DNA from: Chromera velia | Taxonomy: Eukaryota; Sar; Chromeraceae | DNA: 64,000 nucleotides | Assembly: GCA_018398765.1 (NCBI GenBank) | Contig: JAHBMJ010002527.1 | Location: 51,171 to 115,170 of the forward strand | Direction of reading: 5' to 3' | Shown here: positions 1-53,698 of the stretch, in pieces | Layout of the letters: each line of letters starts with the position of its first letter | Position numbering within the stretch: position 1 is the first letter of the stretch | Position numbers and translations under genes: made by a program | Notes under the pieces: generated by a model | Seen by the model: the letters and a program-made list of their open reading frames with translations, nothing else | Database searches by the model: none | Told to the model about the DNA's origin: nothing

Positions 1-160
1 ACACACACACACATACACACACACACACATACATATATATAGCACACATACACACATACACATACACATATACATACACACACACACATACACATACACA
101 CACATACACACACACACATACATACACACGGACAGACGCATACACACAGACGCACACACA
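1..160. repeat. (CA)n microsatellite
   Basis: Nearly pure CA/TA dinucleotide repeat with scattered ATAT and GACAGACG interruptions, running off the left edge of the window. Confidence 0.95.
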
Positions 161-278
161 TAAGATAAATCTATTCCAAACCGTCTCCAATAGTAAAACG
201 GTCTCCAAAATAACCATACCTCTTAAACTTTTTTAGACAGTAAACAATACTTAAAAGCTTAAAACAAAGAGTTTTAAC

Positions 279-741
279 GCATGCCGGGGGGAGTGGGGCT
301 AGGAGTGGGGTGCTTTTTGCCCCCCCCTCTGGATAGGAGACTGGCGCTTTTCCGCAAAAAACTTGTTCTCATAATTGGTAAGGAGTTGGAAGCTGAAACT
401 TTGTGTAAAAGACGTTGTAACAATAGAAAAAAAACTGTAGAACAGATTTTTTGTATTATTTCTAGAAACATAGGCCGCCATACAAATTTTGTGAGTTTCA
501 TACCATTTTTTTTACTATTGAAAACTGTTGAAAAATGATCTGAAAAACAAAAAATTTGTATGGCAGCCTATGTTTCTAGAAATGATATAAAAAATCTGTT
601 CTATAGTTCTTTTTCTATTGTTACAACGTCTTCTTACACAAAGTTTCAGCTTCTAATTCCTTACCAATTATGAAAACGAGTTTTTTGCAGAAATACGCCG
701 CTTTAGGGGGGCAAAAAGTACCCCACTCACCCCCGGCATGC
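279..741. repeat. 463-bp foldback (inverted-repeat) element
   Basis: A long imperfect palindrome bounded by GCATGC at both ends (279-284 and 736-741). The left arm runs to about 490 and the right arm starts about 551, leaving a spacer of roughly 60 bp. Matching landmarks are the G/C runs near each end, the AAAGTTTCAGCTTC-type block and the TCTAGAAACATAGG block. Arms are mostly alike but carry scattered substitutions and small indels. No coding potential was seen and no clear target-site duplication was found. It fits a non-autonomous foldback or MITE-like element, but the family is unknown. Confidence 0.85.
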
Positions 742-1389
742 AAAGCGATCAAACAATACGATTTCTTGTTTTTCAATCGGGTTTAGTGAGAGAAAAAAAT
801 ATATTGTGTTTGACCGCGGCGTGTGTGTTTCGCGTGTCAGTGCACGTGCTGTGTCTGTCATGCATTGCCAATGAAAGCGGCGGCGGGGCCCATGCCAAAA
901 CAAACTGAAAATCGTGGCAAGAAAATAAAAAAAGCCAATTTTTTGATGCATGCAGATGCAACTGAAGGACGCGGTTGCACCTCTATGCACATTAAGCTCA
1001 AAAGTGATCGGTGCATACTGCACATTTATCTTTGCACATTGTAAGACAGTCACTGTGGATCTGCTTCGAAAGTGTTCACTGCTGATGTTTACAGATCAGG
1101 TTGCGCGGTATTTCAAACAGAATAGCTGTATTCTTCGCATGCCATTGGGAGAGTAGACTTTGGAACGAACCTCAGCCGTCTCTCTTCTTTGGGCATGGCC
1201 GTCTCGTTCTGTTAGTAAGCGTGGTTGGTAAATTTGGAGAGGCCCGTCTTGCTCTCAATCTTTGATCGACGTCTTTTTTCTTTTGCGTGTCTCTATGCAC
1301 GCGCTCGAGCTCTTGCTTTCTTTGCCAGGGGAACTGGGGCTGTTTTTATTTTCCTTCTGGTGAGTTTGAGGTTCCGCCTCCTCTCAGAC
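742..1389. other. Intergenic, nothing recognised
   Basis: Mixed-composition sequence between the foldback and the LINE fragment. No convincing coding region, RNA gene or repeat was seen. Confidence 0.6.
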
Positions 1390-2580
1390 GTGTACTGTGC
1401 CGAGAGCAAAGTTAATTCAGAAACTGAGAAATGAGGGCGTGAGTGAGGCAGACATCTGCATGATCCGTGAAATGTACAGAGAGGTATGGAGCAGGGTTGA
1501 CGGTGACTCTCTACGTTTTCGGGAGGGCGCTGGAGTGAAGCAAAGGGATGCTCTCTTGCCTATTCTTTTTCTTCTGTACATAAATGATCTCCTCCGTGTG
1601 TGTTCTGCAAGCAAGAGCGAGGCAAGGCATACTAGCGAGGCAGTCGAGCGAGAGCGGGCAGACGTAGAAATAGAAGTAGGCAGTGGAGAGGAGCCAGAGA
1701 GCGAGCCGGAGCCAGTTTTACTGGATGATTGTGTCCTGGACAGTTTAGGTTATACTGACAATCTCTGTTTCTTGCCCATTCCGTCTCAGACCTTCAAAAA
1801 AAATTCTCTGCTCTCGAGAAGTATTGCAAAGAATAGAGACTTACAGTCAATCTGAAAAAGACAAAGATTCTCCGCTCTGGTTTGGTGGTGTATGAAGGGA
1901 AAGAGGTTGAATGGGCAACGGAATACAAGTACCTGGGGTGTCTATTCTTTCTAGCTGTTCTTTGAGGGGGGATGCCTCAGTGAAACAGTTGAATCGCGTA
2001 TTGCTTTAGCCTCCCGCACCCTGGGGGCTGTGTTTGGTCTGATTGCCAGCATGGGTCCCCTCAGTGTAGATGTGCAGATGACTGTTTTTAGAGCGTGTTG
2101 GTCCCCTGTCACACTGTACTGCCTCGAATGTTTCCCTCTTTGTGATGCCAATCTTCTTGCAACTGATGCTTTGCAGCTCCGTTTTGTACGCTGGTCTGGC
2201 CGTCTGTCTGTTCGTAGTCTTCGTTTACCCTCCCTGTGTATTTTCAGCCTGCTTTCTGCAAAAGCCCTACTTTGCTCTAGAGTGGCCGACTGGTGGTGCT
2301 CGCTCTCGTAAACCATGCATACCGTTCCTGCTGTAATGCTGCGTGCCTGGAAGGGAAACAGTTGTCCAGAGTTTTTGAGAGCCTCCTTGCGGCTGCTTCG
2401 TTAGGCTAGTCTGGATTTTGTTTGTTCGTTGGAGGTGGGAGTGCCGCAATATGCCGCAACACCCTGGCACCAGCGGGCAGCAGCGACGGAGAGTTTAAGG
2501 CACCGGCTCTCTCTTCTTTAAGGGCAGAGCTAGACAATGTCATGCAGTTGTGGAAGAGGTCTGCACGCAGCGGGCGGGGA
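1390..2580 (+). mobile_element. Decayed LINE reverse transcriptase fragment
   Basis: Part of the reverse transcriptase of a non-LTR retrotransposon. The first frame (about 1397-1855) reads VPRAKLIQKLRNEG, then GVKQRDALLPILFLLYINDL, which matches the family block GVKQGDPLSPLLFNLYINDL. The catalytic YADD box is degraded to YTDN near residue 120 of this frame. The match continues in other frames: LEKYCKE, VNLKKTKIL and a YLGCLF block at about 1810-1950, then a thumb-like segment at 2030-2311 (VDVQMTVFRACW, RWSGRL). Stops and frame changes show that it is dead. The 5' part (endonuclease) is absent. The 3' end abuts a TGAG array, as LINE tails often do. It resembles clades with single-ORF LINEs, but the clade is not resolved. 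Confidence 0.8.
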
Positions 2581-3478
2581 GTGAGTGAATGAATGTCATT
2601 GAGGGAGTGGATGCATGAATGAGCGAGTGGGTGAGTGAGAGAGTGAGTGAGTATAGGAGTGAGCCAGTGGGTGAGTGCGGGTGGGTGAGTGAGCGAGCGA
2701 GTGAGTGCTGGTGGATGAGTGAGTGAGACTCAGTGAGTGAGTGAGTGAGTGAGTGCCACTGGTTGAGTGAATGAGTGAATGGATGGGTGAGTCTAGTTGA
2801 GTGGGCAAGTATGAGAGGGAGATGAGAGGGAGTGAGTGAGGGTGGGTGATTCGGTGAGTGAGTAAATAAGCGAGTGGGTGAATGAATATTGAATGAATAA
2901 ATGAATGAGCCGGCCAGTGAATGAGTAAGCACGGATTAGTGAATAAGTGTGGGAGTGAATGAAGAAGTAAGTGGGTGAGTGGGTGAATGAAGGGATCATG
3001 AGTGGGTGAATGAGTGAGTGAGTGAATGAATGAATGAGTGAGTGAGTGCTTGAGTGAGTGAGTGAGTGAGTGAGTGAGTGAGTGAGTAAGTGAGTGAGTA
3101 AGTGCGTGAGTGAGTGAGTGATTGAGTGATTGATTGAGTGATTGAGTGATTGATTGAGTGAGTGAATGAATCAGTGAGTATGGGTGGGTAGGTAAGTACG
3201 GGTAAGTGAGTGTAGGAGTGAGTGAGTGAATGAATGTCATTGAGGGAGTGGATGCACGAATGAGCGAGTGAGTGCATAATATGTATATGTAGGAGTGAGT
3301 CATTGTGAGAAAGCGAAAGAATGAGTGAGTGAGTGATCGAGTGAGTGAGTAAGCGAGTGGACTGTTGAATGAATCAGTGAAAAGGTGATGGATGAATGAA
3401 TGGGTGGGTGAGTGGGTGGGTGGCGGTGAGTGGGTGAATTAATGAATGAATGAGTATCGGTCCTTAAGTTTATGTTCA
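2580..3478. repeat. (TGAG)n-rich tetranucleotide array, about 0.9 kb
   Basis: Degenerate GAGT/GAAT array. Open frames through it (for example a THSLTHSL peptide on the minus strand) come only from the repeat and are not genes. Confidence 0.95.
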
Positions 3479-3504
3479 GGAAACGCTTCTCCCCCCCCCC
3501 CCCC

Positions 3505-3735
3505 NNNNNNNNNNNNNNNNNNNNNNNNNNNNNNNNNNNNNNNNNNNNNNNNNNNNNNNNNNNNNNNNNNNNNNNNNNNNNNNNNNNNNNNNNNNNNNNN
3601 NNNNNNNNNNNNNNNNNNNNNNNNNNNNNNNNNNNNNNNNNNNNNNNNNNNNNNNNNNNNNNNNNNNNNNNNNNNNNNNNNNNNNNNNNNNNNNNNNNNN
3701 NNNNNNNNNNNNNNNNNNNNNNNNNNNNNNNNNNN
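3505..3735. other. Assembly gap (231 N)
   Basis: Run of N flanked on both sides by poly-C, so the unsequenced stretch probably begins and ends in a C-rich region. Confidence 0.99.
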
Positions 3736-5267
3736 CCCCCCCCCATCCAAGACCCAACCGCCCTGGCTGGAGCAAGTTTTTTCTCGCGGCTTTCGGCAAC
3801 AAATTTGGTCCCTTGTGTTTGGGTTCAACGAAGCGAGGATCTGGTCATTCGGAATAAGCCATACACCTTGAATCCTAACAGTAATCTCAACAAATCCAAT
3901 AACAAACCATGCAAATAGAATATTTTGATTACATGTTTTTCACAACATGTTTTGCATTTATCGGGCCTCATCCATCCTCCTCCATATACCTATATTATTT
4001 TATGATACCGTCGTTTTCCACTTATCATACATGTATTTGATGTAGTGTGTAGTCTCATCCTAGAGTCTCATCATCGAACTCTCATGATGCTAATAATAAT
4101 GTAAAAGGGGGAGGGGAATAATTCAAAATATATTTAAAAAAATGTGAACTTCTTTAAAATTGAAATTTCTATATATAAAGTTTGTTGAAGCCGTAAAAGC
4201 TGTGGCTTTGATGGCCAAAGGCCGTCAAAGCCGTGATTTTCATAGTTTGTCATTTTTGAAACTGACTAGCCTCTTGGGGGTACCTCCATACCATCCCCCC
4301 TCCATTTAGGCACTTCTGAGCATGGTGGCCCCAAACATCCAGCGCAGCCCCACATGCATAAACCTTTGCCCTCCATATCTTAGGGATCTACAGGCCCAGC
4401 CTGATGTGAAGAGCCACACGGTAGACAGCAGGGGGGAAACGAAGCCAGCCTGAGGATGGGATGGTGCTCAACCAGCTTGACGTTCCATTACCAGAGTATA
4501 AATACAGCTGAACACGCTCTTCTACCGGCACATAGTAAAAAAACCATGTATGGTGCGCGTAATTCAGGGTGTCCCCGACCTTTTGCTGAACTATGCTGAA
4601 CGTACCAGTCCCCGCGTGGGACCACCAATTTGAAAGCTACGATTGATCATCCTACGGCTTACAAAAGGGATGGTCTGCCTTAAGCCTGATGTCTTTAGAT
4701 GTCTTTCGTCATCCGCTAAGCCTTCTCGAAGGCATCTTTACATGCGACCAGCCAAGGGAGTGAGAGAAAAGCTCCTGGACGGAGACCGTTAAAAAAGATG
4801 AACGCGCTGTGGCAGGGACTGCACCACGCATCCGGATCGATGCACGCGCGCGGCGCCGCGATGCATGGCGGCGCCGCAGCAATTAATTTTTATTCTTTAA
4901 GGACCACAAATGACGCACGCAACAGGTCGCGAGCGGACTGAGAGCGCCCCCGAAAGCGAAAAACCCACTTTCCAACTCAAGAAAGTTTTTCAAAAAAGTG
5001 CCCCACCAGACACTTTCCGGGACTATACTACTACTATACTACTACTAAGCTCTCTTAATTGTGACGTACAATTCAGTCGATCGCCTGTATCTGAAGTTGT
5101 CTCCGCAACAACGTATTCCTTGCACCCTGAGCGCCCCTCAGCCCTGCAGTCCACCCGAGAATTCCTTTGCCTGGCTGAGTCGTTTCCATCCTGATCTTGT
5201 CTGAGCTGTGGGGGACTTACTTTCTGTCTGTGTAGCCGGGAAATAAAAGGATCAAGAACGAGAAAGA
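3736..5267. other. Intergenic region upstream of the BT1 transporter
   Basis: AT-rich from about 3850 to 4300, then mixed. A near-perfect short hairpin lies at about 4200-4230 (GGCTTTGATGGCC and GGCCGTCAAAGCC around an AAA loop). A GC-rich inverted repeat surrounds GATGCATGG at about 4848-4878. An ACT-triplet run sits at about 5026-5047. No gene was recognised. The promoter and 5' UTR of the downstream transporter should lie in the last few hundred bases. Confidence 0.6.
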
Positions 5268-15472: not shown

Positions 15473-18400
15473 ATGGACAGACGTGCCAGCAGATGTTCCT
15501 TCAGAACTGTGCTGCTCCTCTCAGCTCTCCTGTACGGGGGTCTCTGCGCGTACGCATTCGCCCCCCACACCTGCCCGCCAGCTCCCAGTCTACATGTGAA
15601 GGGAAGGAGAGCCTCGTGGCAGAATGCCTTCCATTCCCAAAGGCACAGACGTAAGCAACGAGCATCGAAACTGCAAGGCAGTGACCTGACGGCTTCTGTG
15701 TCCGTGGAGAGCCGTCTCTTCCCGACAGGATCTGAAAAGGTGAGCAGGGCTAGAGACGAAGAGAAGGGAGACGCGGGGACGTCTGACGTGCTTACAAGAA
15801 AGGGAGGCCTGCAGATGAACTCGAGCACTTCATATGCAGGCATCGGGTGAGGAACACGCGCGCACATTGTCATGGAAAGGCTCTGAATGATCCAGAAACG
15901 GGGAGGGGGAACTGTCCACCTGCTGTCTGGGGCGCATCCCATTGCTTTCCCGCCGGTCATCTTCTCTGTGGTTCTCCCGTTGCCTTCCTCCCCCGCCCTT
16001 TGTGTGTCTTTCCTTGTTCATGCCTGACCTTGTCGCTGTCCGTGCCCCATCCCTACCACTTCCTTCTTCTGGCGGATCTCCGTGTCTCCCTGTATGTCTG
16101 CATGCACGCACACGGAAAAGCACGTAAGCAACACATGACTGCAGTCTTTTGAGAATACTGTGTGTGATCCCATAAGCTGCCCACGACCCCGCACTGCCTA
16201 CCTCTCTACAGGTTCTCCGAGGGGTGCTTCTAGAGTCCAATCTTGAGTTCGTGATAGTGAGGGAGGACAGGAGGAGAGGCGGGAGGGCGGGGCAAAAGGG
16301 AGACTCGCAGAAGAGAGCCCAGAGTGGCGGCGCCTCCCACAAGTTCCTGGTGGCTCTTGAGGTCTTAGGGGGCAGCGTGATGGAGTCAGACGGGGAAGAG
16401 GGAATCACACATCTGATGGAACATATCATGGCAGACAGGTCGGTCCGTTGGGGGGCGATGTTGATATGAGTGCTTTGGACGTCCTGTAAGGCATTTGTTG
16501 GTTTTTTGTGAGGGAACTGTTGGTAGTTTCCGATTTTTCTAGAAGAGAAAATTAATTTGTCAGGAAGAAAGAGGCAGGAAAAGATGTGCGTATTTCGCGT
16601 GTGTCTGCTGTAAACAGGATGGAACGCTGCTGCAGCTCTCGCATGACATCGGACTCTTGAAATGTCTCTATGCATTTGTCCTCTCCCATCTAGTACCTCT
16701 TTGAGTGAGTGTGTGTGTGTGTGTCTGTGTGTGTGTCTGTGTGTGTGTGTGTGTCTGTGTGTGTGTCTGTGTGTCTCTCTGTGTGTGTGTGTGTGTGCAC
16801 GCAGACTTCAGGGAGTGAGGGGCAGTTCCCCCAGTGTCTCTGCTTGTGTGACTCCTCGATGCTCCCTCTTCTCGATGGTGGGGTCCTCTTTTGACAGAGA
16901 CTTTGTGTCGGGGGAAGGGGGCATGGAGAGGGCTCTTCTGTCTCTCCGGAATATCCTGGGGGACTCAAAAGTGGACGTGGAGGTCTGTCGGCTTGGGTGG
17001 GAAAGGGAAAGGAGGTAATGGATTTTTATTCAGGCAGGGTCTGATTGACACTTGAGAGAAATCAGGCGAGGGAGGACGGATAGAAAAGAAAGGAGCAGAG
17101 AGAGGAAGGAAAAGGGCCATCGATCCGATTGGAGCCAATTAATGAGTCAGCAAGTATGTAGGTGAGGGGGGAGTGGGAGAGATGAATAGAAAAACATAAA
17201 TCAAGGGCGAGTGACATCCCGATACTTATGTTGCACTTGGCTGATGAAAATTCCGAAGGAAGGACAACTAAGTGACCTCAGCCTTCGTTTTTTTTCTCTT
17301 TCTTCGGTCTCACCATGCATGCATGTATCATCTTTTCAAAAGCCAATCCAAGCATGCGGGTGAAATGCTCATGTATGCATGGATCATGCAGGTACTAGAG
17401 AGGGAACGTCAGAGGGTCTTGTCAGAGATTAGTTGTCAAAGTTCTTTCTTTGAGGCAGGCAGTGGTCGTCTCTCAGAGAAGATGCATCAGGAGAACGTGA
17501 TCCCAAGGAAAATGCCAGTTGGCAGAAAGGAGTGTGTCGATTCTTTTTCTGTAGAGCAAATGGAAGAATTTCATCGAAAGAATATCACTCCTGATAAGAG
17601 TCGTGTCTACGTTGTGGGAGATTTTGAAGACACGGAAGGGGTGCGGCAGCTTTTGGAAAAAACATTCCAGGGCCTCCGTGTTTCGCCTGCAAGTGATGAA
17701 CGCAAACGGACCGTCTCTGGGATCCCTTTTGATCTTCAGAGCAACAATGTGCGGTCAGTGAACTCGTCCATCAATGCATGACAGACTGGCAGCTCTGGAA
17801 GATCAAAATATGTTTCTTTAAGTGTCTTCTTTTGTTCTTCTCAACTGAACGTCTTTTTTTCGATTTCATTCGAGAAACGTCCAGATAGATGCCTTTAATT
17901 GTTCCACCCAGATGCAAAAATATGTATGCATGCCCATACATAAATAAGTCCCCTCAATTCATTTGCACCCCCTACCCTCACCCCTACATAAACCAGACCC
18001 TGCCTTTATCTTCTGTCTGACCCATTCTCATCCGACATCACATCTGACCCCTTGATCAATTCCTTCCGTGCCCCAATCTGCTGTACCTGTTTGCGTCTCT
18101 TCCCGACAGGACAGTGGGAAAGAAACGGAACCTGAATGAAAGGTTGAAAAAAAAAAAAAGCCCAAGAACGCCCTCTTTCTTTCGTCCTTGATTTATCTTT
18201 CATCCCTCTCCTTGTGGTCCTTCCCTTCCCTGATACCAGGTCCCGTCCCTTCAGTCCAGGGGGAGGTCATCTGTTTTTCTCTCCCCAGTCCTCATCGGAC
18301 CCTCACAAGCATGAAGAAGAGAAACAGAGGGAGGAGACGGGCGTGCGTGCATCAAAGACAGATGCCCTGTTTCTCCCATGGGGCCAGAGAGGGAATTTAC

Positions 18401-19960
18401 GGTGCAGAGCCGTCATCAAGAGGCCGCTGCCGTCTCCTGAAAATGAANCTACATAAACCAGACCCTGCCTTTATCTTCTGTCTGACCCATTCTCATCCGA
18501 CATCACATCTGACCCCTTGATCAATTCCTTCCGTGCCCCAATCTGCTGTACCTGTTTGCGTCTCTTCCCGACAGGACAGTGGGAAAGAAACGGAACCTGA
18601 ATGAAAGGTTGAAAAAAAAAAAAAGCCCAAGAACGCCCTCTTTCTTTCGTCCTTGATTTATCTTTCATCCCTCTCCTTGTGGTCCTTCCCTTCCCTGATA
18701 CCAGGTCCCGTCCCTTCAGTCCAGGGGGAGGTCATCTGTTTTTCTCTCCCCAGTCCTCATCGGACCCTCACAAGCATGAAGAAGAGAAACAGAGGGAGGA
18801 GACGGGCGTGCGTGCATCAAAGACAGATGCCCTGTTTCTCCCATGGGGCCAGAGAGGGAATTTACGGTGCAGAGCCGTCATCAAGAGGCCGCTGCCGTCT
18901 CCTGAAAATGAACAGGGACAGAAAGACCGAGCTAAGGAGGGGGCACGACGAGTGGCCGAGGCTCTGATCGAACGGCGTCTCCAGAGGGCGGGGTTTGGGT
19001 CCTGTCTGCAAGGGAAAGGGGGGTCTTCGCCGCAGGGGGGCAGTGGGGGGTTGTATAGAAGAGGAAAAGTCTCAAAGACGCGTTGTTCTCTCTGGCAGGC
19101 AGATGAAATTGAGCTTGGATGCCGCACTTTGAGTTTTCAATTGGAGACATCTGTAGACGAGATGGATCGCGTGAGCGAAATTTGTGTGGCAGAGTTGAGA
19201 CGTCTGGCAGAAGGGAATCACTTCGGAGAGGAAGAATTAGAAAGTGCCAGAGAGGCAGCGCTTGAGACTTGGAATTCTGAATTGAGAAATCGTGTGGGAA
19301 ATCTGGACTTCTCTCTAGACGCTTGCAGAGCTGCCATCGCATGCGGAACTCCTTTGGAGAGTTTGGATGACCGGTGGGTCCGAGTAGAGCGCTCCGTGCG
19401 AGCGGCCTCGTTGGACGATGTCGCAGCGTCACTCAGAGAGTTTGCCGGTTGGGTGCCTCAAGTCTTCAGAAGCGGGGGAGGAGACGCGAACCTGCTGGTT
19501 GTGTGGGGGGGAGAGGGGGAAGCAGAGGGCAGTGGGAGTTCTGCTGGAGGCACTGGAGACGGTGCGCGTCTCCTGCAGGTGCTGCAAGAAGCCTCCAGAG
19601 CGCCTGTGGAGTCTCTCCCGTTCCCTTCGCCAGTCAGTGGGGGGGGGGAAGGGGGTAGCGGAGGTTTTTGCAGTTGGGTTGGTAGTTTCTTATTGAAGAG
19701 GAGTTTTGCATTTACAGTTGGAGAAGATCGCCTGGTCCGGATTGTATTTTGTCAAGTGTGTTGGATGAACAGGTGTGCCTGTGAATATGATGGGTTTTTT
19801 AATTGTGCTTTCCTTTTGTATCTGTTGACATTCAAATCCGCGCGGGAAAAGACAGTAATCAATTAATCAGTGGGCGTGCAGTGGCTTTTGGAGAAATCTT
19901 CTTGGCCTTTCTTGACGACGTGCGTTCATTGAATTGTTCTCTCTGTCTGTTGTTCACGTA

Positions 19961-22646: not shown

Positions 22647-23855
22647 CCCCTATGAGTCCACTGAGAGAGCGCGCCAAAAGAAGAAAGAAAAAAACAGAAG
22701 AGAATGAAGAAAGAGAAAAAGGAAAAGAAAAGACGATATGGTCTGTCTATCGGTCGTTCGCTCTGTCTTGCTGCATATGCAGCTGTGTTGTCTTTGATCG
22801 TGTGCTTTGTTGTTTGCTCGGGCGTCTCGCTTACTGTCTTCCAAATGGACCTTGTGAACGGATTCGTCTTTGAATGAACATCAGAGAAGAATAAAAATGA
22901 AGAGATCGATGTCGGCAGGTAAGGTGAAGGTGCTATCGGTGTATTGATCACTTTGCGTTTGGTGCAGAAGCTGGACGGACTCCCGACTCACAATTTGAAT
23001 GAAAAACGAGAGAGAGTCAAAGATGGTAGAAAGAATTAAAGCGTTTTGAGTCGAAACAAACAGACAGAAGGGCATACGAGATCCATCCGCACGGGCAGAT
23101 CGACAGATACACTGAAAGACAAACGAACTGTACAAACTCCCGCACTGTGTTGTCGGCTGAAACATGTGCCAGTTGATTCTCCTCTGTCATTCCTTCGTTC
23201 CGGCAGACTGAAGGCCATCTCGAGGGTGACTGGTCAGCGCACCCTCATCTGCAGACAGCCCGGGCCGTCCACTTCTTTGGAACAAGGCTCTGAGAAAAAG
23301 CAGCAGACTGACGAGGACGAAGGCTGGAAGGGTTCGCTTTCTGCAAGTCAAGTCGGGCATTTATCGTTGGACGATTTTGCAGGGGACGAAAGAGATCCCT
23401 NGAATGAAAAACGAGAGAGAGTCAAAGATGGTAGAAAGAATTAAAGCGTTTTGAGTCGAAACAAACAGACAGAAGGGCATACGAGATCCATCCGCACGGG
23501 CAGATCGACAGATACACTGAAAGACAAACGAACTGTACAAACTCCCGCACTGTGTTGTCGGCTGAAACATGTGCCAGTTGATTCTCCTCTGTCATTCCTT
23601 CGTTCCGGCAGACTGAAGGCCATCTCGAGGGTGACTGGTCAGCGCACCCTCATCTGCAGACAGCCCGGGCCGTCCACTTCTTTGGAACAAGGCTCTGAGA
23701 AAAAGCAGCAGACTGACGAGGACGAAGGCTGGAAGGGTTCGCTTTCTGCAAGTCAAGTCGGGCATTTATCGTTGGACGATTTTGCAGGGGACGAAAGAGA
23801 TCCCTCTGCTGCTGGGGGACTTTTTGTTATGAGAGACCAGTTTCGGCGAGACTAG
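15473..23855 (+). CDS. SPP: Plastid-targeted M16 metalloprotease, stromal processing peptidase type
   Basis: Likely removes transit peptides from imported plastid proteins. Inferred exons: 15473-15739, 16212-16438, 16694-16708, 16805-16982, 17392-17753, 18705-19632, 20029-21327, 21729-21883, 22167-22272, 22337-22411, 22532-22611 and 23612-23855. All are in phase, giving 1311 aa, close to plant SPP length. Residues 1-28 form a signal peptide cut before F29 (AYAFAP), followed by a Ser/Arg-rich transit-like segment. The zinc motif HLMEH is at about residues 156-160. The expected downstream acidic helix is LERERQRVLSE in exon 5. SPP-specific blocks follow: YVVGDFED, GNLDFSLDACRAA-like in exon 6, and MPWPNRWG in exon 7. 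Weak points are the 15-nt exon 3, whose GT-repeat intron could also be read through, and a tandem acceptor (CAGAG) at exon 10. Two scaffold joins duplicate the start of exon 6 and all of exon 12. Another M16 member is possible, but the NRWG block argues for SPP. Confidence 0.85.
17984..18912. repeat. Exact 464-bp duplication around a single N (assembly join)
   Basis: Bases 17984-18447 recur at 18449-18912, separated by one N at 18448. The unit contains intron 5 sequence and the first 208 nt of exon 6 of the M16 protease. The position of the N and the lack of any difference I could see point to unmerged overlapping contig ends, not a biological repeat. Confidence 0.93.
22997..23805. repeat. 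Exact 404-bp duplication around a single N (assembly join)
   Basis: Bases 22997-23400 recur at 23402-23805 with one N at 23401. The unit contains the end of the last intron and most of the last exon of the M16 protease. Same signature as the join at 18448. Confidence 0.93.
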
Positions 23856-32934: not shown

Positions 32935-34688
32935 CTTTTTTCGTCATAGCCCCGGTTTGCAATGTATAGGCCGGCATTTAATTCTTTTACAACCACCTAT
33001 ACACGTACCCCCGGAGGCACGCACACAACTTGTTGGGTGTATCCCGTTAAAAGACCCCCCGAAGCTCTGGTACACGCGCGAATTTCAATTTTCCTTCTAC
33101 ATCCAGGCAGTCAGTCAGTCAGTCAGTCAATAAGTGAGATAGTCAAATAGACGAGGTTTTTCTTACATTCCAAATCGGATGTATCTTTCCCTTGCCCCCT
33201 ACACTTTTGTAGAGATGCAAGCAAGGTGGCCCTCTGTTACGTTGCAAAAAGAAAAGAGAAAGCTCTTTGACGTGCCAACTCTCTGCTGTTCTTTTTTGCC
33301 TTTCCAGGCCTACCAGAAGGAGGAGTTGGAGGAACAGGTGAAGACGGAGAAGCTCTCTGCTCGTGCGCAGGCTTGTATCATAAGTTGTATGCTTGAAAAC
33401 GGACCTTTATATTGAAGATGGACCCCTATATAATTAACCAATTAAAAAATATACAACAAATATTAATAGATAAAGTTAGTTTGATAAATATATAATAGAA
33501 ACTTGGTAGATGAGTATTTGAAACACATCGATTGATTGGGTGTAATTGGGTGGCATCGGGCGGCCAGGTATTATATGGGCATGCATGTGTGGCCCGCCAT
33601 GCACACAGGCGGGACGGGCCGGGGGGTGCCGGTCTTGTATGCATGGGCACGGGCGGCGTTGCGCGGCGGCTGACGCCGCGCGCGCGTGCGGTGGAATGAC
33701 GCACGCAGCCGAATATCGATCTCCGAATCCGATTTAATTCTGCATGACCGGTCGTCGCGGCTGCACTATTAATATATAGCTGCGAGTACCAAAAAAACTT
33801 TTAATCTACCCTGAAGGTACATATACGCTGTATAGGGAAAAAGGTAGGTTATGAAGTTAGATTAGGTTATTGGCCCTCCAGTTATGATAACGGGACATGC
33901 TAATTAATAATTAACTTGAATACCTTGGAACGACCTACGAATCTAACTAGGAATCTAAAAACAAGAAATTTAGAGGAATTTAGTAAATTTCGGGGGTCGA
34001 TAGTGTGTGTCATTGTTTTAAATTTGCCTAAATATTAGTAGATTGCTAGGTAAATTGCAGGATTGCACAGCGATGCGGAGGTAAATTCATGTTATAGAGC
34101 CTGCGTTTACTTTCGTACAGAATTCTTTTTCAGGGAGCGCTCCCTGAAAAAGAATTCTGTATGAAAGGAGCGCTCCCTGAAAAAGAATTCTGTATGAAAG
34201 TAAACGCAATTCATGTTAGAGCCTGCTTTGCCTCCTAGTTTGCCACGCTTCGAGTATACCTGTCACTACCCGCCACGGCCAAGTGTCCGTCACCCCTGCA
34301 CGTCCGCAAATCATTCAACCGGATCACTGCGCCTTCTCCCGTCCACCCCTCTGCGGGCTGACGGGGGACCTCCGAACAACCATCTCGCTGTTCTCCCCGT
34401 CTCGTATACCCTCCAGGGGGTAGCCTGCAGAAGCAGAAGGGAAAGGAAAGGAAAAGAAAGGAAAGGAAAGGAAAGGAAAGGGAGGAGAGGGGGAGACGTG
34501 TTCGAATTGTGCGGGTGGTTAGCCTCGTGTGAAGACGGGGGAACCCAGCACGACGTACACGATTGCGGGCCACAAGGCAATAGATATGCATGCGCGCAGA
34601 CCTGGACTTCAATACATTTCCATACAGATGTGGACCGGTAGGGAAAGACGCCAGACTCTCTCACTCACTCACTCACTCACTCACTCAC
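32935..34688. other. Intergenic, with a possible orphan exon and AT-rich island
   Basis: After a TTTCCAG acceptor-like site, 33309-33370 reads AYQKEELEEQVKTEKLSARA with high charge and no stop, which looks like a coiled-coil exon; I found no partners for it. From about 33410 to 34100 the sequence is AT-rich apart from a GC-rich block at about 33550-33700. A GAAAG-rich run lies at 34440-34480. No gene was assigned. Confidence 0.4.
34103..34209. repeat. Short palindromic element flanked by direct repeats
   Basis: A near-perfect palindrome is centred at 34138/34139 on GGGAGCGCTCCC, with arms containing AGAATTCTTTTTCA and its complement. Its right arm is repeated once in tandem (about 34168-34200). 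Outer ends are GCGTTTAC and GTAAACGC. Flanking sequences ATTCATGTTATAGAGCCTGC (34086-34105) and ATTCATGTTAGAGCCTGC (34210-34227) are near-identical direct repeats, as expected of a target-site duplication. Confidence 0.75.
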
Positions 34689-37600
34689 TCACACCCACAC
34701 ACACACGCACGCACGCACGCACACGCACGCACCTGTCTCCAAGGCAGCCTCTGCTTCCACCGTGGCCAGCATCGCCGCGAGGCTCTCGGCCGTCTCCACG
34801 TCTTTGTGGGAACATTCTCGGAACAGTCGGCCCTCCTGCATAACTATCACCCTGTCACATCCTCTGCAAAGATTAGAGTCAGAAGAGAAGAGGGGAATCA
34901 CTTTCTCTTCAATCTGTCGGGCCCCTCTCTCACCCTCCCCCTCTTTTTTTCATCCTCTTCTCCCAGTCTATGGAAGAAATTAAAATCTCGAACGCACAAT
35001 GGACAAAGAAGGGAACTCCCACAAACGATGGAAAGAAAATGGACATGTTTGTTGCAGAGATTGAGAAAAAAGGACACCCCCAACCCCAACACGCAGAGAC
35101 GCACGCACTTGAGAGACTCGGGGTGATGTGCCACAACGATCACAGGGCAATGACGGAAGTGAGCCGAGAGAAGCCGGTCCAGGAGGTCCGAGGGGAACCC
35201 CCTCGCCTTCCCTCTCCCATGGTGAGGACTTCCTCTAGAAGACAAGTCTCTACTGTCCCCCTCCTCGTCCTCAATCTCATCCGTCTCTTCTGCCTTGGGA
35301 GGCTCGTCAATCAACAACAAACGGGTGCGAGAGGCGTCCAGCAACAGACGGCAGAGACTCAGCCGGTGAAGCTCACAGTCTGCAAAGCAAATGATTTCAT
35401 TCATCGATCAAGAGTCCGTCTGTTGTTGATTCTGTAATTGGGCTTTTCACTTCATTCATTTCCTCCTTGACTTACTTGAGGGTGAGGTGTGCTCTTTTTC
35501 TCTGCGGGTGAGGCATTATGTGAGTTCCTGATTCATTCTTCTCCCCCTTCTTGAGATTGCATGAAGGATTCAGCAACAGCCTGAAAGCACGCTGTCTTGA
35601 TTCCTCTGAACGGAATGCTTTTGTACTCACATGAATACATTTTCGTACGCACAATCTTGCTCTCTGTCCCCAGCTTGTATGTGTTTACACTTCCGTCAAA
35701 TGTCAAATCTCCTTTTTCTCTTTCTCTATGTCTCTCCTCCCCGCTTCCCCTCGATAGGTACCTTCCGCTCATTCTACCATTCTATCTGCCAGTCTATTTG
35801 TGCATCCTTCCCGGCCCCTCTCTGACCTGTGAACTTGATTCCCGCGTCTCTCACTGCTCCTTCCACGCTCTTCGCCTCCCCCTCCTTTCCTCTCTGTGAT
35901 CCATGCTTAGACAAAGACACCCCGCCTTTCAAGGTGATGTCCAGAAGGGCCGAGGGGTCCAGCCGCACAGTCAGAGACACGCTGTGACCCTGATAGGAGG
36001 GGGAGTGTGAGGCTCCTCGGAGCGCCTCTGCCCTCCTGTCGACAACAAGGTCCAGCAGGCGGAGTTCCTCCATGGCTGCCATGATGGCGTCGTCGCTCTT
36101 TTGGCCCTGCATGGATTCAACATACACAGGTATATACTCACAAAATTTGTTCCAAACGTTATCGTATCCACACTCTTGGAGCCGCACAAAGAGGGGTGGG
36201 TGAAGCAGGCAGAAGCCCAACACAGGCAGGCCGGTGCCGTTCTTGCTCTCTTAGTCTTCCCAGCGGGCCCGAGGTAGGCAGGCAGGCAGGCAATATCGAG
36301 AACATACCGACCTGCTTTCTTTGTAAAATGGCCAACAAGAAACAAGAGAGACTGTCGAAGGGTTCATAATCTGTCCTCACCTCTCATCACCATGCCATTT
36401 TCAGGAACAGAGTGAGACGAATGCTCTCTCTTTCTCTCTCTCTCTTGCACTCACCGAAGGGTCTAGGAATCTTCTGAGGGTCCATCCAGAGACCACCAGC
36501 GGTCTGTGAGGCAGGAACGCCACTCCCAAGGCCCCACACAAATAGAAGTCCCCCCCCTTCGTGTCAGACGACCCTCCATTTCCTCCTTTCTTCCGTCTCT
36601 GCCCTACCACTCCCCGCCCCCTCCTGCCCTTCTCCCACGCCGCCTCCAATTCTCTGCGCACTTCCCACGGATCCTGACCCTCCACCCTCAGAGATCCCCC
36701 AGACACAGGCAGAAGACCAGCCAAGGCATTCAACAGAGAGCTCTTCCCTGCACGTACACAGACACAGGCACAAGACCAGCCAAGGCATTCAACAGAGAGC
36801 TCTTCCCTGCACGTACACAGACACAGGAACAAGACCAGCCAAGGCGTTCAACAGAGAGCTCTTCCCTGCACGTACACAGACACAGGCACAAGACCAGCCA
36901 AGGCGTTCAACAGAGAGCTCTTCCCTGCACGTACACAGACACAGGCACAAGACCAGCCAAGGCGTTCAACAGAGAGCTCTTCCCTGCACGTACAGAGAGG
37001 CATTGCAAACCAATCTTTCTCTTCATATGCACGAAAGAAAAAATCTGGAAGCAAAGCGAAACTCCAGAGAGACTTGCAGCTCCGCTTTGTCGAGAACTTT
37101 TTTTTTCTCAAAGCAAAAGCTTTTTTTGCAACACAAGCGCTCGATCTTGCGGTTACACTCGAGACACAGGATGGGTCTTTATTTTTTACAGTATGGACCA
37201 CATGCAACCAGCAGAAAATGGGAGGAACCAAACAGCGAGGCAATAGAGAGTCTGCAGGCATTTCTCAGAAAGGGGGGGGGGGGCTTTTTTTTCTGACTGA
37301 CCGGCTCCGGTTCTCCCCACAACTCCCACCCTCTCTCCAGGTGCAACCTTCAGACTGATCCCCTTCAATGCCCTGAAGCCTCCCGGTTCTTGTCGGGGAT
37401 CTCTGGAGGAGTACACGGTTGAGGAAGACACCCCAGCCCCCCCCATGGAGAAAGCCTTCGGCTTGTACAAAGAAGGATCAAAAGCGACTGTCACCCTGTT
37501 CACCACAACTCCAGGGGAACGGGGAACTTCCATTGCTTTCGTTTTGCTGGGGCTTTTCTTCATCCCCTCTCCTGTTGAGGTGTCTGTGAGTGCTCCTCCG

Positions 37601-38421
37601 ATTCCGTCGGACTCGATAGTGGAGGACCGAAGTGAGAGGAGACGTGTGACAGTGGGAAGGCAGTCTGCCTCTCTCATTTTTCGTTCTCTCTCTTCTGGAG
37701 AGTCTGTCTGCCTGAGAGAACTCAACCGAACGACTTCCTCTACCCTCTCGACCGAGCACATCTGCTTCTCCAAGTCCGTCCAGTAGTAGAGCTGCTGGCC
37801 GATCAAACCTGCTAGTTGCATGGAGAAGGTAAGGGCAACACCCACAGCTCCCGCATCCTGCATTCATAGGGAGGAAAGCCGAAAAGGAACGAAAATGAAG
37901 GGATGCGCAGCCTGCGTGTCACTCGGACGGGCGCGATCTTTTCTTTTATGAGAGAACGTCCAAAGAGAGAAGCGCAGAGGAAGAAAAAACGAAGAGGATT
38001 CTATGGAAACGAAAGAACAAATTACGTGTATGAAAACTAGGTCCACATGCAACAGGAACAGGGCCACATGCAACATGCAGCCACGCAGATAAGTGAAAGC
38101 AAAAGCAAGAATTAAGCTGTCGACTTAACTTACCGCAGCTGCTGTTCTCTCAACAAATCCCGACTTCCAGACGATGTAGAAGGGAATGAAAGTATTGGCA
38201 GCCATCAGAGGCCAGGTCAGGAGCTGAACCCAGAGCGCCGCCCAATGGTGGCACCTGCATGCCGAAAGACATAGAGAAAGTAAAAGAGCAGTCATAGACG
38301 ACCTTACAATTTTACAGAATCAGAAATCATCCTCTGGGGACGTGGTTGCAAATTTGGCCGAGACACGAATACCTCTTGATTGCTTTGAAAATGACAACTT
38401 TCTTAACAAATGGGACACACA

Positions 38422-38494
<73 letters not shown>

Positions 38495-41400
38495 AACCCG
38501 TTGGAGACAAAGTGGAGTCTGTTCCTCCAATCGATCCGCTTCAAATTTTCCTCCACTGCGAAGTGTTCCAGTTTCATCACCCTCAGCAGACGACTCCCAG
38601 AGATGCCCTCTGAGAACGACGCCAGAAGGAGCGACAGGGCAGCAAGACCCCTTCTCCGCAATTCTCTGCACGTAGCGAAAAACAAACAGATGAACAACGT
38701 GAGACTGTTGCCATTTGCTTTGAGCACACTTGTGGAGAAATCACGATAAACACGTGAACACATTCACACGCATCGGCACCATGCACCGGCCACATCCGTA
38801 CAACCCCGTGTGCATGCCAACAAATGAACACAGCAAACAGACAGAGGGGGGGGAAAGGGACAGAGGGAGAAGAAGAAACAAGAAACCAGATACACACGCA
38901 CGGATCTACCTTGCCGAATGGCAGTAGAATTTGTACACCCAGTGGTAGACGCAGTAGAACAGAAGAGGAAGCAGGCCGATACAAAAGGGGGAAGTCCAAG
39001 TCAAGATCACAACCTGCACAGCAACCAAGCAGATCAAGTTCCGAGGAACAAAGTATGAACAAATAAACCTGTCCGATTTGTCCTTCCAGAAGCACGAGGA
39101 AGGATCGCAGTAAAAAGGAGGCCAGAAAGCAGACACATGGACAGAACAGGAAGTCCTCACAAACATTTCAGCTTTGTTGCATGGGTCCACGATCAAGCAC
39201 TGAAATGCGACTGAAGATCCTTCTATCCCTTCCTGACCGTGCAGACGAGGTAGGTGAGTCCCCCAATCACAATCCCCACAGTCTGCACCAAAGAGAAATC
39301 CATGATCCAAATGTCCACAGAGAAACGGTTCAGGAGCTTCCCAGTCGGGAACGCATCGAAAAACGCGATCGGGGCACGGACGAGCACGGAATCCAACAGT
39401 GTGTTGTGCATTGCGGTAGCTCCTCGAATGCCTCCCGTAGCTTCGAGAAGAAAGCCGACGAGGTTGGCAATCAAGAGAAGACCGCAAATTCTGCAAACAG
39501 ACATTCAGAAGAGAGGAAAGGGATTGGCAATCAAGAGAAGACCGCACAGTCTGCAAACAGACATTCAGAAGAGAGGAAAGGAATTGGAGAGACCGACACA
39601 GAAAAACTCCATGAGCAAGTGAGGCATACTTGTAACCAAAAAGTCTCGCTGCAAAACTCATGGCCCATTTCCTTCTTGGTGCAGTGCGACAACCTGGAGT
39701 CATCACTGCACATCTACGCCACACCAAAGTGAGTTTGTGTTCGAAACGCATCTATGCCTTCAAGCATGTAACCACTCTTCCGCCCACGAAGCACACTGCA
39801 GGTTGAGACCGGAGAAAACAGGTGTGTACGGAAAGAAAACTGAAAACAACCAAACGAAAGAACGAACACAGAACAGACAACAAAAAGCGGCCAGGCGACG
39901 AACTCGTCCCCTCCAGGGGAAGGGGGGAAACGAAGCGAGACCATTACACGAACACAAAACTGAAAACAACCAAACGAAAGAACGACACAGAACAGACAAC
40001 AAAAAGCGGCCAGGCAAAAGTCTTACTGCGAGCTAGACTGACACTGCGTATCCGTAGAGGAACCACATCTGGTCTCCTACCGAGAGCTCCAGGCTGAAGG
40101 GCAGAAAGGAGGACAGAAACCCCCCCCGACCGTCTCCTTTCCCGGGACTCTTCCCCGCCTCAAAGTCGGTCCACCGGGCGATCCACAAAGCGGAACCTCT
40201 GTCGAGCAGCCCGATGGCAAGCACGGAGATCACAACCGCCCACACGGTCACCCAACCAACGGAACCCAAAAACCTGCACGAAGAAACAGGCCGGAGGCTC
40301 ACATCTCGCATGCAGGTATGCATACAGACAGATGGCATGTTTGAACCCGAAGTAAACTTAAGATCTAGTGATGCTACGTCGGCTCAGAATTTTTGTCCCA
40401 GAAAAAATCAACTTTTTGAACGAAAAGGAGGACAGAGCAACACCGAGGCAGAGCGAAAAAAATACACTGATAAAGAGAACCAAAAAGGAAAAGAAGAGCC
40501 CATCAGCACAAGTTTCACGAGGAGATACAGACTGAGAACACTGTCTACCCTCTTTCCCTTGCCGTCACAGTTCTGCCTGATTGACTGACCACCAGTAAGT
40601 GCAAAGATGCACGTTTCCGACCGCGCCCTCCTCCTCCCCATCAAATGCTTCCCCTCCCTTTCCGCCTCCCAGTCCCGAATTACCCCCCCTGAGGGTCCCA
40701 GAGGATGCGAGCGCCTCAGGGTCAAGAGAAGAGGGTCCCAGCAAGCTCTTTGAATCATTCAACCCCCCAGAAATAGAGAGGGCAATCGACGCATCTAATG
40801 CCGCAGCCGAGGTGGCCGCGTCAGTCAACCCCCTTTGTCTGCTCTTCCCCTGGTTCCGTTCCACGAACGGCGAAGAATCACTGTCTGACTGCGAATAGGA
40901 GTACCCGAGCGGTGAGGATTCCGACGGGGCAGAACCGTCTCTTGCCTCCGACCCGTCGCCCACATCTCCTGAGAGACCCCGACCGAAGCGAATGCCTGAC
41001 AGAGGCTGGTTGCTCATTCCTCCTTCAGATGGGGGGCCTACAGACAACGGCAGATCTCCCTCAACAGACACACTTACACCCACAAACCCACCTTCCGGGC
41101 CCGCATGACTCAACCGAACCACCTGCACACATGACCGTCTCCCCTTTTCCTTGACCTCGCGTTTCCGCAATGCTGCAAAAGTCTCAGGGCCCATCGAGAT
41201 CAAAACCGCCATCCCCTCACATACACGCCCAGGAGCTGTCAAAGCACTCCAAACTCGAAAGGCTACTTCAGGATCCAGACCGCAAAGAGGTTCATCAAGC
41301 ACTGCAAGGGTCTGTCTAGAGTCAAACACCGCTCGTGCCAACTGCACCCGCGCTCTCTGACCTGCCGACAGTTCCTGCCCCCCCTCATCGATTCTTCTTC

Positions 41401-48866: not shown

Positions 48867-53404
<4,538 letters not shown>

Positions 53405-53698
53405 TTTCAGGCAGGGCTTGGAGACGGCGAGACGCTAAAAGAACTTTCCGAAGACGGCCACGTCGCACGCTCAAAGCCTGACAGAGGGAAGCCACACACG
53501 ATAACAATAAACGAGGGTACAGGATGTGGGCAATAACGAACTCAATCGCATACCATCAGTTCAGGGAGTCATATAGCTGGTGGTGATTGGCACGGCAATC
53601 TATGGAAAAGAGCAACAAAGAGTATATGGGACGGGTGAGGACTCAGGCGAGTAGACGGTAATATAGACAATCGCCCCTGACAGTCGCCATGCAGCATT

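Follow-up and report, generated by a model that had tools for sequence, protein, structure and literature searches.

Tandem copies of a 3′ splice site within the second Walker A motif of an ABCC-type transporter gene of Chromera velia, read as a probable young minisatellite

The window analysed here, a stretch of 64 kb of Chromera velia DNA, carries an ABCC-type transporter gene on the minus strand (44728-34689), modelled in 15 exons and 1786 codons with hand-read GT-AG introns and a stop codon ending at position 34689. Sequence similarity was found over TMD1, NBD1, TMD2 and NBD2, which identifies the gene as a full transporter of the ABCC type. Among PDB sequences the model protein matched ABCC3 (best), ABCC2, YCF1 and MRP1 (best E 1.8e-66), all four with the same order of these domains by sequence, and the ABCC3 match covers query residues 296-489, 596-770, 948-1306 and 1415-1474. 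Pfam assigned ABC_tran to NBD1 with 57 bits, ABC_membrane to TMD2 with 40 bits and ABC_tran to the N-terminal part of the spliced NBD2 with 47 bits (profile positions 4-66 of 137). In the NBD2 of the model (35109-36106, minus strand) we take a Walker A motif and the Walker B-like LLLIDEP, both read by eye, to be present, and at the junction of exons 13 and 14 (GIKFTDCELHRLS) the domain presumably has no LSGGQ-type signature, none being evident by eye. The gene thereby differs from the ABCC transporters named above in the signature of NBD2 as read by eye and also in an intron that splits the NBD2 Walker A motif; the domain is possibly a degenerate site, to judge from its sequence.

The chosen acceptors of the hand-built model end in TGCAG in 14 of 14 cases, and 7 of the 14 donors begin with GTCAG, not GTRAG. 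Genome-wide, GGTCAGTC occurred 17,891 times and its reverse 10,972 times. A U1 candidate above the cut-off was found at G000:C723:30205-30359, with weaker candidates at C948 and C1068. Elsewhere in the window an open frame on the minus strand (52865-53434) has apparent repeats that we take to be of the TPR type, and just past the 3′ end of the transporter gene a 33-bp tandem repeat (34134-34200) lies in a near-perfect palindrome (about 34090-34205) resembling a small inverted-repeat element. Rfam at gathering scores and tRNA scans of the 64-kb window gave no match.

Exon 11 (37302-37857, minus strand) closes with the first half of the Walker A motif of NBD2 (GRTGAG) and is followed by the donor GTCAGT, and exon 12 of the intact model (36455-36747, minus strand) begins with KSSLLNALAGLLP. 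Over the border of intron 11 and exon 12 lie five tandem units of 59 bp (36700-36994, minus strand), reported by Tandem Repeats Finder as 36700-36998 with a period of 59, 5.1 copies and 97% matches; an array of this kind is not due to chance. Each unit joins 11 nt from the end of intron 11 (TGTACGTGCAG) to 48 nt from the start of exon 12, and with the borders of the hand-built model every copy thus holds an intron end, an AG and an exon start, making the array a tandem duplication of a 3′ splice site. The initial annotation had described a repeated acceptor together with the Walker A exon start, and the five CGTGCAG acceptors were indeed found where it had placed them, but the intron concerned, put there between exons 12 and 13, separates exons 11 and 12 in the hand-built model.

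In the order of transcription, unit 1 (36936-36994, exon start 36983) is followed by the identical unit 2 (36877-36935, exon start 36924), unit 3 with one private change (36818-36876, exon start 36865), unit 4 (36759-36817, exon start 36806) and unit 5 (36700-36758, exon start 36747), all on the minus strand, and only unit 1 still has the original intron in front of it. The units differ from each other at 0-3 of 59 bases, unit 5 from unit 1 at two of 59, and the array is therefore regarded as young. The change of AAC to AAT is common to units 4 and 5, and that of GTG to CTG is found in unit 5 alone. The left flank of the array ends in AATGCCTCTC and the right flank begins with GGGGATC; at the repeat junction the exon sequence GTGTCTG is joined to the intron sequence TGTACG, and the breakpoints of the duplication have at most TCT in common, beside a mismatch. 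An AGGT proto-splice site is absent from the 59-bp unit sequences.

The reading frame distinguishes the last copy from the others. Joining the donor GGAGCCG/GTCAGT at the end of exon 11 (37302) to position 36747 gives GRTGAGKSSLLNALAGLLPVSGG, with no stop before the end of the model, and the ABCC3 match at residues 1415-1474 spans the Walker A junction formed in this way. The same donor joined to any of the four earlier acceptors gives GRTGAGKSSLLNALAGLVPVSVYVQGRALC, after which translation would end at codon 1473, 24 residues past the junction (about 25 codons in the initial annotation). In the hand-built model an intact frame through NBD2 is obtained with 36747 alone of the five acceptors, and unit 5 is the only copy in frame with the remaining exon 12; the claim that only the last acceptor restores the domain is thus borne out.

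A second acceptor of the same gene is also duplicated, by a 60-bp unit of 2.1 copies with 95% matches over the border of intron 6 and exon 7 (39464-39587, minus strand). In this unit about 33 nt of intron, pyrimidine tract included, are followed by about 27 nt of exon 7. The frame is kept from the downstream copy (exon start 39490); the upstream copy (exon start 39550), by reading of the sequence, continues to a stop after LCGLLLIANPFPLF. The probability that both units hold an acceptor by random placement in the gene span was approximately 0.005 with 14 acceptors and 0.004 with 12, both values being post hoc.

The splicing signals in front of the five acceptors were compared with those of the 13 other acceptors of the transporter model, where the AG-free runs measure 16-71 nt and the pyrimidine content is 50-83%. 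Acceptor 1 has an AG-free run of 29 nt upstream with 57% pyrimidine, and acceptors 2-5 have runs of 50 nt with 60-63% pyrimidine, in sequence that is mostly derived from the exon. Since acceptors 2-5 also stand behind an AG-free and pyrimidine-leaning stretch, all five are plausible on paper, and with upstream signals this comparable neither exclusive use of the first nor exclusive use of the last acceptor can be predicted from the sequence. Well-studied systems show a strong preference for the first AG downstream of the branch point (PMC7317903), and such a preference, observed in other organisms, would favour the acceptor of unit 1. The array RNA folded in no unusual way (z = −0.93, 19 of 100 shuffles folding at least as well), and the idea of decoy acceptors hidden by RNA structure was rejected for want of a folding signal.

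The number of copies depends on the quality of the assembly. No N base occurs within the 59-bp array or within the array at 39464, and three variable positions tell the units of the former apart, except units 1 and 2. Elsewhere in the window, tandem copies of 465 bp (17984-18913, 99% matches) meet at a single N at position 18448, and tandem copies of 405 bp (22996-23805, 99% matches) meet at a single N at position 23401. Both single-N joins are likely artefacts of scaffold joining, and with two such cases false duplication probably occurs in this assembly. Base differences between the units had earlier been held to argue against an assembly error; they do make an error less likely, but they do not establish five copies in an array of about 300 bp with two identical units. 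With no N and with distinguishable units, yet in an assembly that has false tandem copies, a copy number of five is probable. The alternative that fewer units exist in the cell, which the two single-N joins with their duplicated flanks and the identity of units 1 and 2 would allow, is unlikely for arrays that are both free of N, the larger one with three variable positions separating its other units.

The frequency of duplicated acceptors was investigated in the genome to which the window belongs (177.8 Mb, 4040 contigs) by counting pairs of words 30-60 bp apart, using the acceptor-like TTTGCAGG, the donor-like CGGTGAGT and the reverse of each as control. TTTGCAGG occurred 10,682 times and its reverse 3,443 times, CGGTGAGT 4,595 times and its reverse 4,971 times. 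Pairs of TTTGCAGG numbered 20 in 18 places (9.95 expected by chance) and those of its reverse 10 (1.03 expected), against 9 in 8 places for CGGTGAGT (1.84 expected) and 65 for its reverse (2.15 expected). The excess of pairs per 1000 single occurrences was thus 0.94 for TTTGCAGG, 2.60 for its reverse, 1.56 for CGGTGAGT and 12.6 for its reverse, in a comparison of four words of which some are prone to simple repeats and in which flanks were checked for the TTTGCAGG pairs only. At tandem distance TTTGCAGG shows no excess over the controls and is the lowest among the four words, and a specific enrichment at acceptors is not supported by its rate relative to the control words.

When the 18 places of TTTGCAGG pairs were read with their flanks, 12 were found to share just 8-12 bp, and 6 have longer matches. 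Three of the 18 places are plausible duplicated acceptors by their sequence, namely those on contigs C1875 (56 bp in two copies, 59 of 59 identical), C3012 (52 bp in three copies, 97%) and C3038 (40 bp in two copies, 42 of 42 identical), which correspond to stretches L047, L050 and L051. At each of the three a pyrimidine tract precedes TTTGCAG, the frame past the last copy is open, and the period (56, 52 and 40, respectively) breaks the frame. The frame set by the last acceptor also stays open within each array, over part of it or throughout, so that these places may be repeats inside one exon. Not accepted were C1725 (L046), where nothing more than a direct repeat of 19 bp, 54 bp apart, was found, C829 (L042), which is ambiguous with a period of 42 and several, possibly coding, copies, and C1470 (L044), which is another repeat.

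A second acceptor-like word present in the 59-bp array, GTGCAGGG, was counted in 70 pairs and its reverse in 10. Letters were at hand for 56 of the 70 rows, and by eye 21 of these belong to one dispersed element, 16 to other minisatellites and 4 to this array; the pairs, mostly other repeats by eye and a pair count without a rate, were not counted as acceptor arrays. The dispersed element has several GTGCAGGG sub-repeats about 36-60 bp apart and was seen on contigs C285, C619, C1970, C2089 and others of G000. Among 15 stretches taken by place, long tandem arrays were found in four (L008, L010, L012 and L015). L012 has a satellite of about 203 bp in 25 copies (1-5096). In L010 a 51-bp unit in 10 copies (461-974) starts at the stop codon of an open frame, and for this position the array, branch-point-like at first sight, was not taken as a splice-site array. 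Within the limits of the four words, tandem duplication looks like a background process that strikes acceptors along with everything else.

Related events have been published. In a potato RdRp gene, a segment reaching from the 3′ part of an intron into the 5′ part of the following exon was duplicated in tandem and made a new, RNA-supported intron (PMC4974935). The duplicated segment is of the same kind as here, but in that case it was duplicated once, the copy included the branch site and the pyrimidine tract, and RNA-seq proved the new intron, whereas the present array has about five copies with 11 nt of intron per unit and is known from sequence alone. Tandem duplication is listed as a genuine route to intron gain, usually via AGGT, in a review (PMC3443670), and premature stops with NMD as a backup are discussed in PMC2891723. 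In the AGGT type, too, tandem duplication gives a coding region additional splice signals, but in that model it is exon sequence that is duplicated and a proto-site that supplies both donor and acceptor, while the unit here lacks AGGT and repeats an existing acceptor. The polyubiquitin gene UBC has an array of dual-specific splice sites (PMC10809524), and there too the sites lie in the units of a tandem array. The UBC sites delimit whole ubiquitin monomers and serve as donor and acceptor, in contrast to the frame-breaking units (59 = 2 mod 3) with an acceptor only that were found here. The literature search returned no report of this array among the matches listed, and the word 'splice' is absent from the main text of the Chromera genome paper in the form available. 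Tandem duplication over a 3′ splice site is thus already published and the present array is a further case, less usual in its approximately five copies, its frame-breaking unit length and its position inside a Walker A motif.

The reading that we favour, with a probability of about 0.72, is that a young minisatellite captured a splice site. A 59-bp segment across the border of intron 11 and exon 12 would first have been duplicated in tandem between breakpoints of scant homology, and further expansion would have brought it to about five copies. Wherever the last acceptor is used, the upstream copies would be skipped within a longer intron and an intact protein would result; wherever an upstream copy is used as the wrong acceptor, a frameshifted message with a premature stop would follow. 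The messages are likely to be a mixture of intact and prematurely stopped ones. For the cell the array is probably neutral or slightly harmful, not a selected device. A genome rich in tandem repeats, with plausible duplicated acceptors elsewhere, counts for the minisatellite. The duplication of two of the 14 acceptors of a single gene is odd and counts against a plain minisatellite, as does the higher pair count of GTGCAGGG than of its reverse, although most of its rows read by eye are other repeats.

The initial annotation had instead proposed a device of decoys, in which acceptors 1-4 would lead to a premature stop and perhaps decay and the copy number could tune the output of transporter. 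Acceptor 5 alone being in frame, the stop at codon 1473 from acceptors 1-4, and AG-free runs and pyrimidine contents with which all five could compete speak for such a device, but tandem pairs of TTTGCAGG are not in excess over the control words and the array RNA is without unusual folding, and we consider the proposal improbable. Its generalisation, that unstable arrays over 3′ splice sites are heritable dials diverting transcripts to decay, of which this ABCC gene would have two (five copies at exon 12 and two at exon 7), is more doubtful still. Rather unlikely, to a lesser degree, is a broken allele, in which the first acceptor past the original branch point is the one chosen by the spliceosome, the message is almost always truncated in NBD2 and the transporter is effectively lost, a situation compatible with origin as a minisatellite. 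It would agree with the presence of the original upstream intron at unit 1 only, units 2-5 inheriting 11 nt, and with the strong preference for the first AG after the branch point elsewhere (PMC7317903). Against it, units 2-5 recreate an AG-free and pyrimidine-leaning zone and the remaining model is intact over 1786 codons with TGCAG at 14 of 14 chosen acceptors, although with an array this young a loss could be too recent to show in the rest of the gene. An incipient gain of an intron, with acceptor 1 used and a donor inside a unit then joined to a later acceptor so that a short peptide is added, seems very unlikely: the potato RdRp precedent duplicated the same kind of segment, an intron 3′ end and an exon 5′ end (PMC4974935), and splicing from a phase-1 GT read within the unit, in GCTG/GTCTTG, to the last acceptor would add 10 residues without loss of frame, but this site poorly matches the donors of the gene (7 of 14 beginning with GTCAG) and the extra residues would fall directly behind the ATP-binding loop.

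With the young minisatellite as the preferred explanation, the limited genome-wide comparison points to background mutation and away from selected design. The locus is a natural test object for the choice of the spliceosome among near-identical acceptors 59 nt apart, of which the farthest alone gives the full-length protein, and the array shows how the growth of a minisatellite can strike splice sites.
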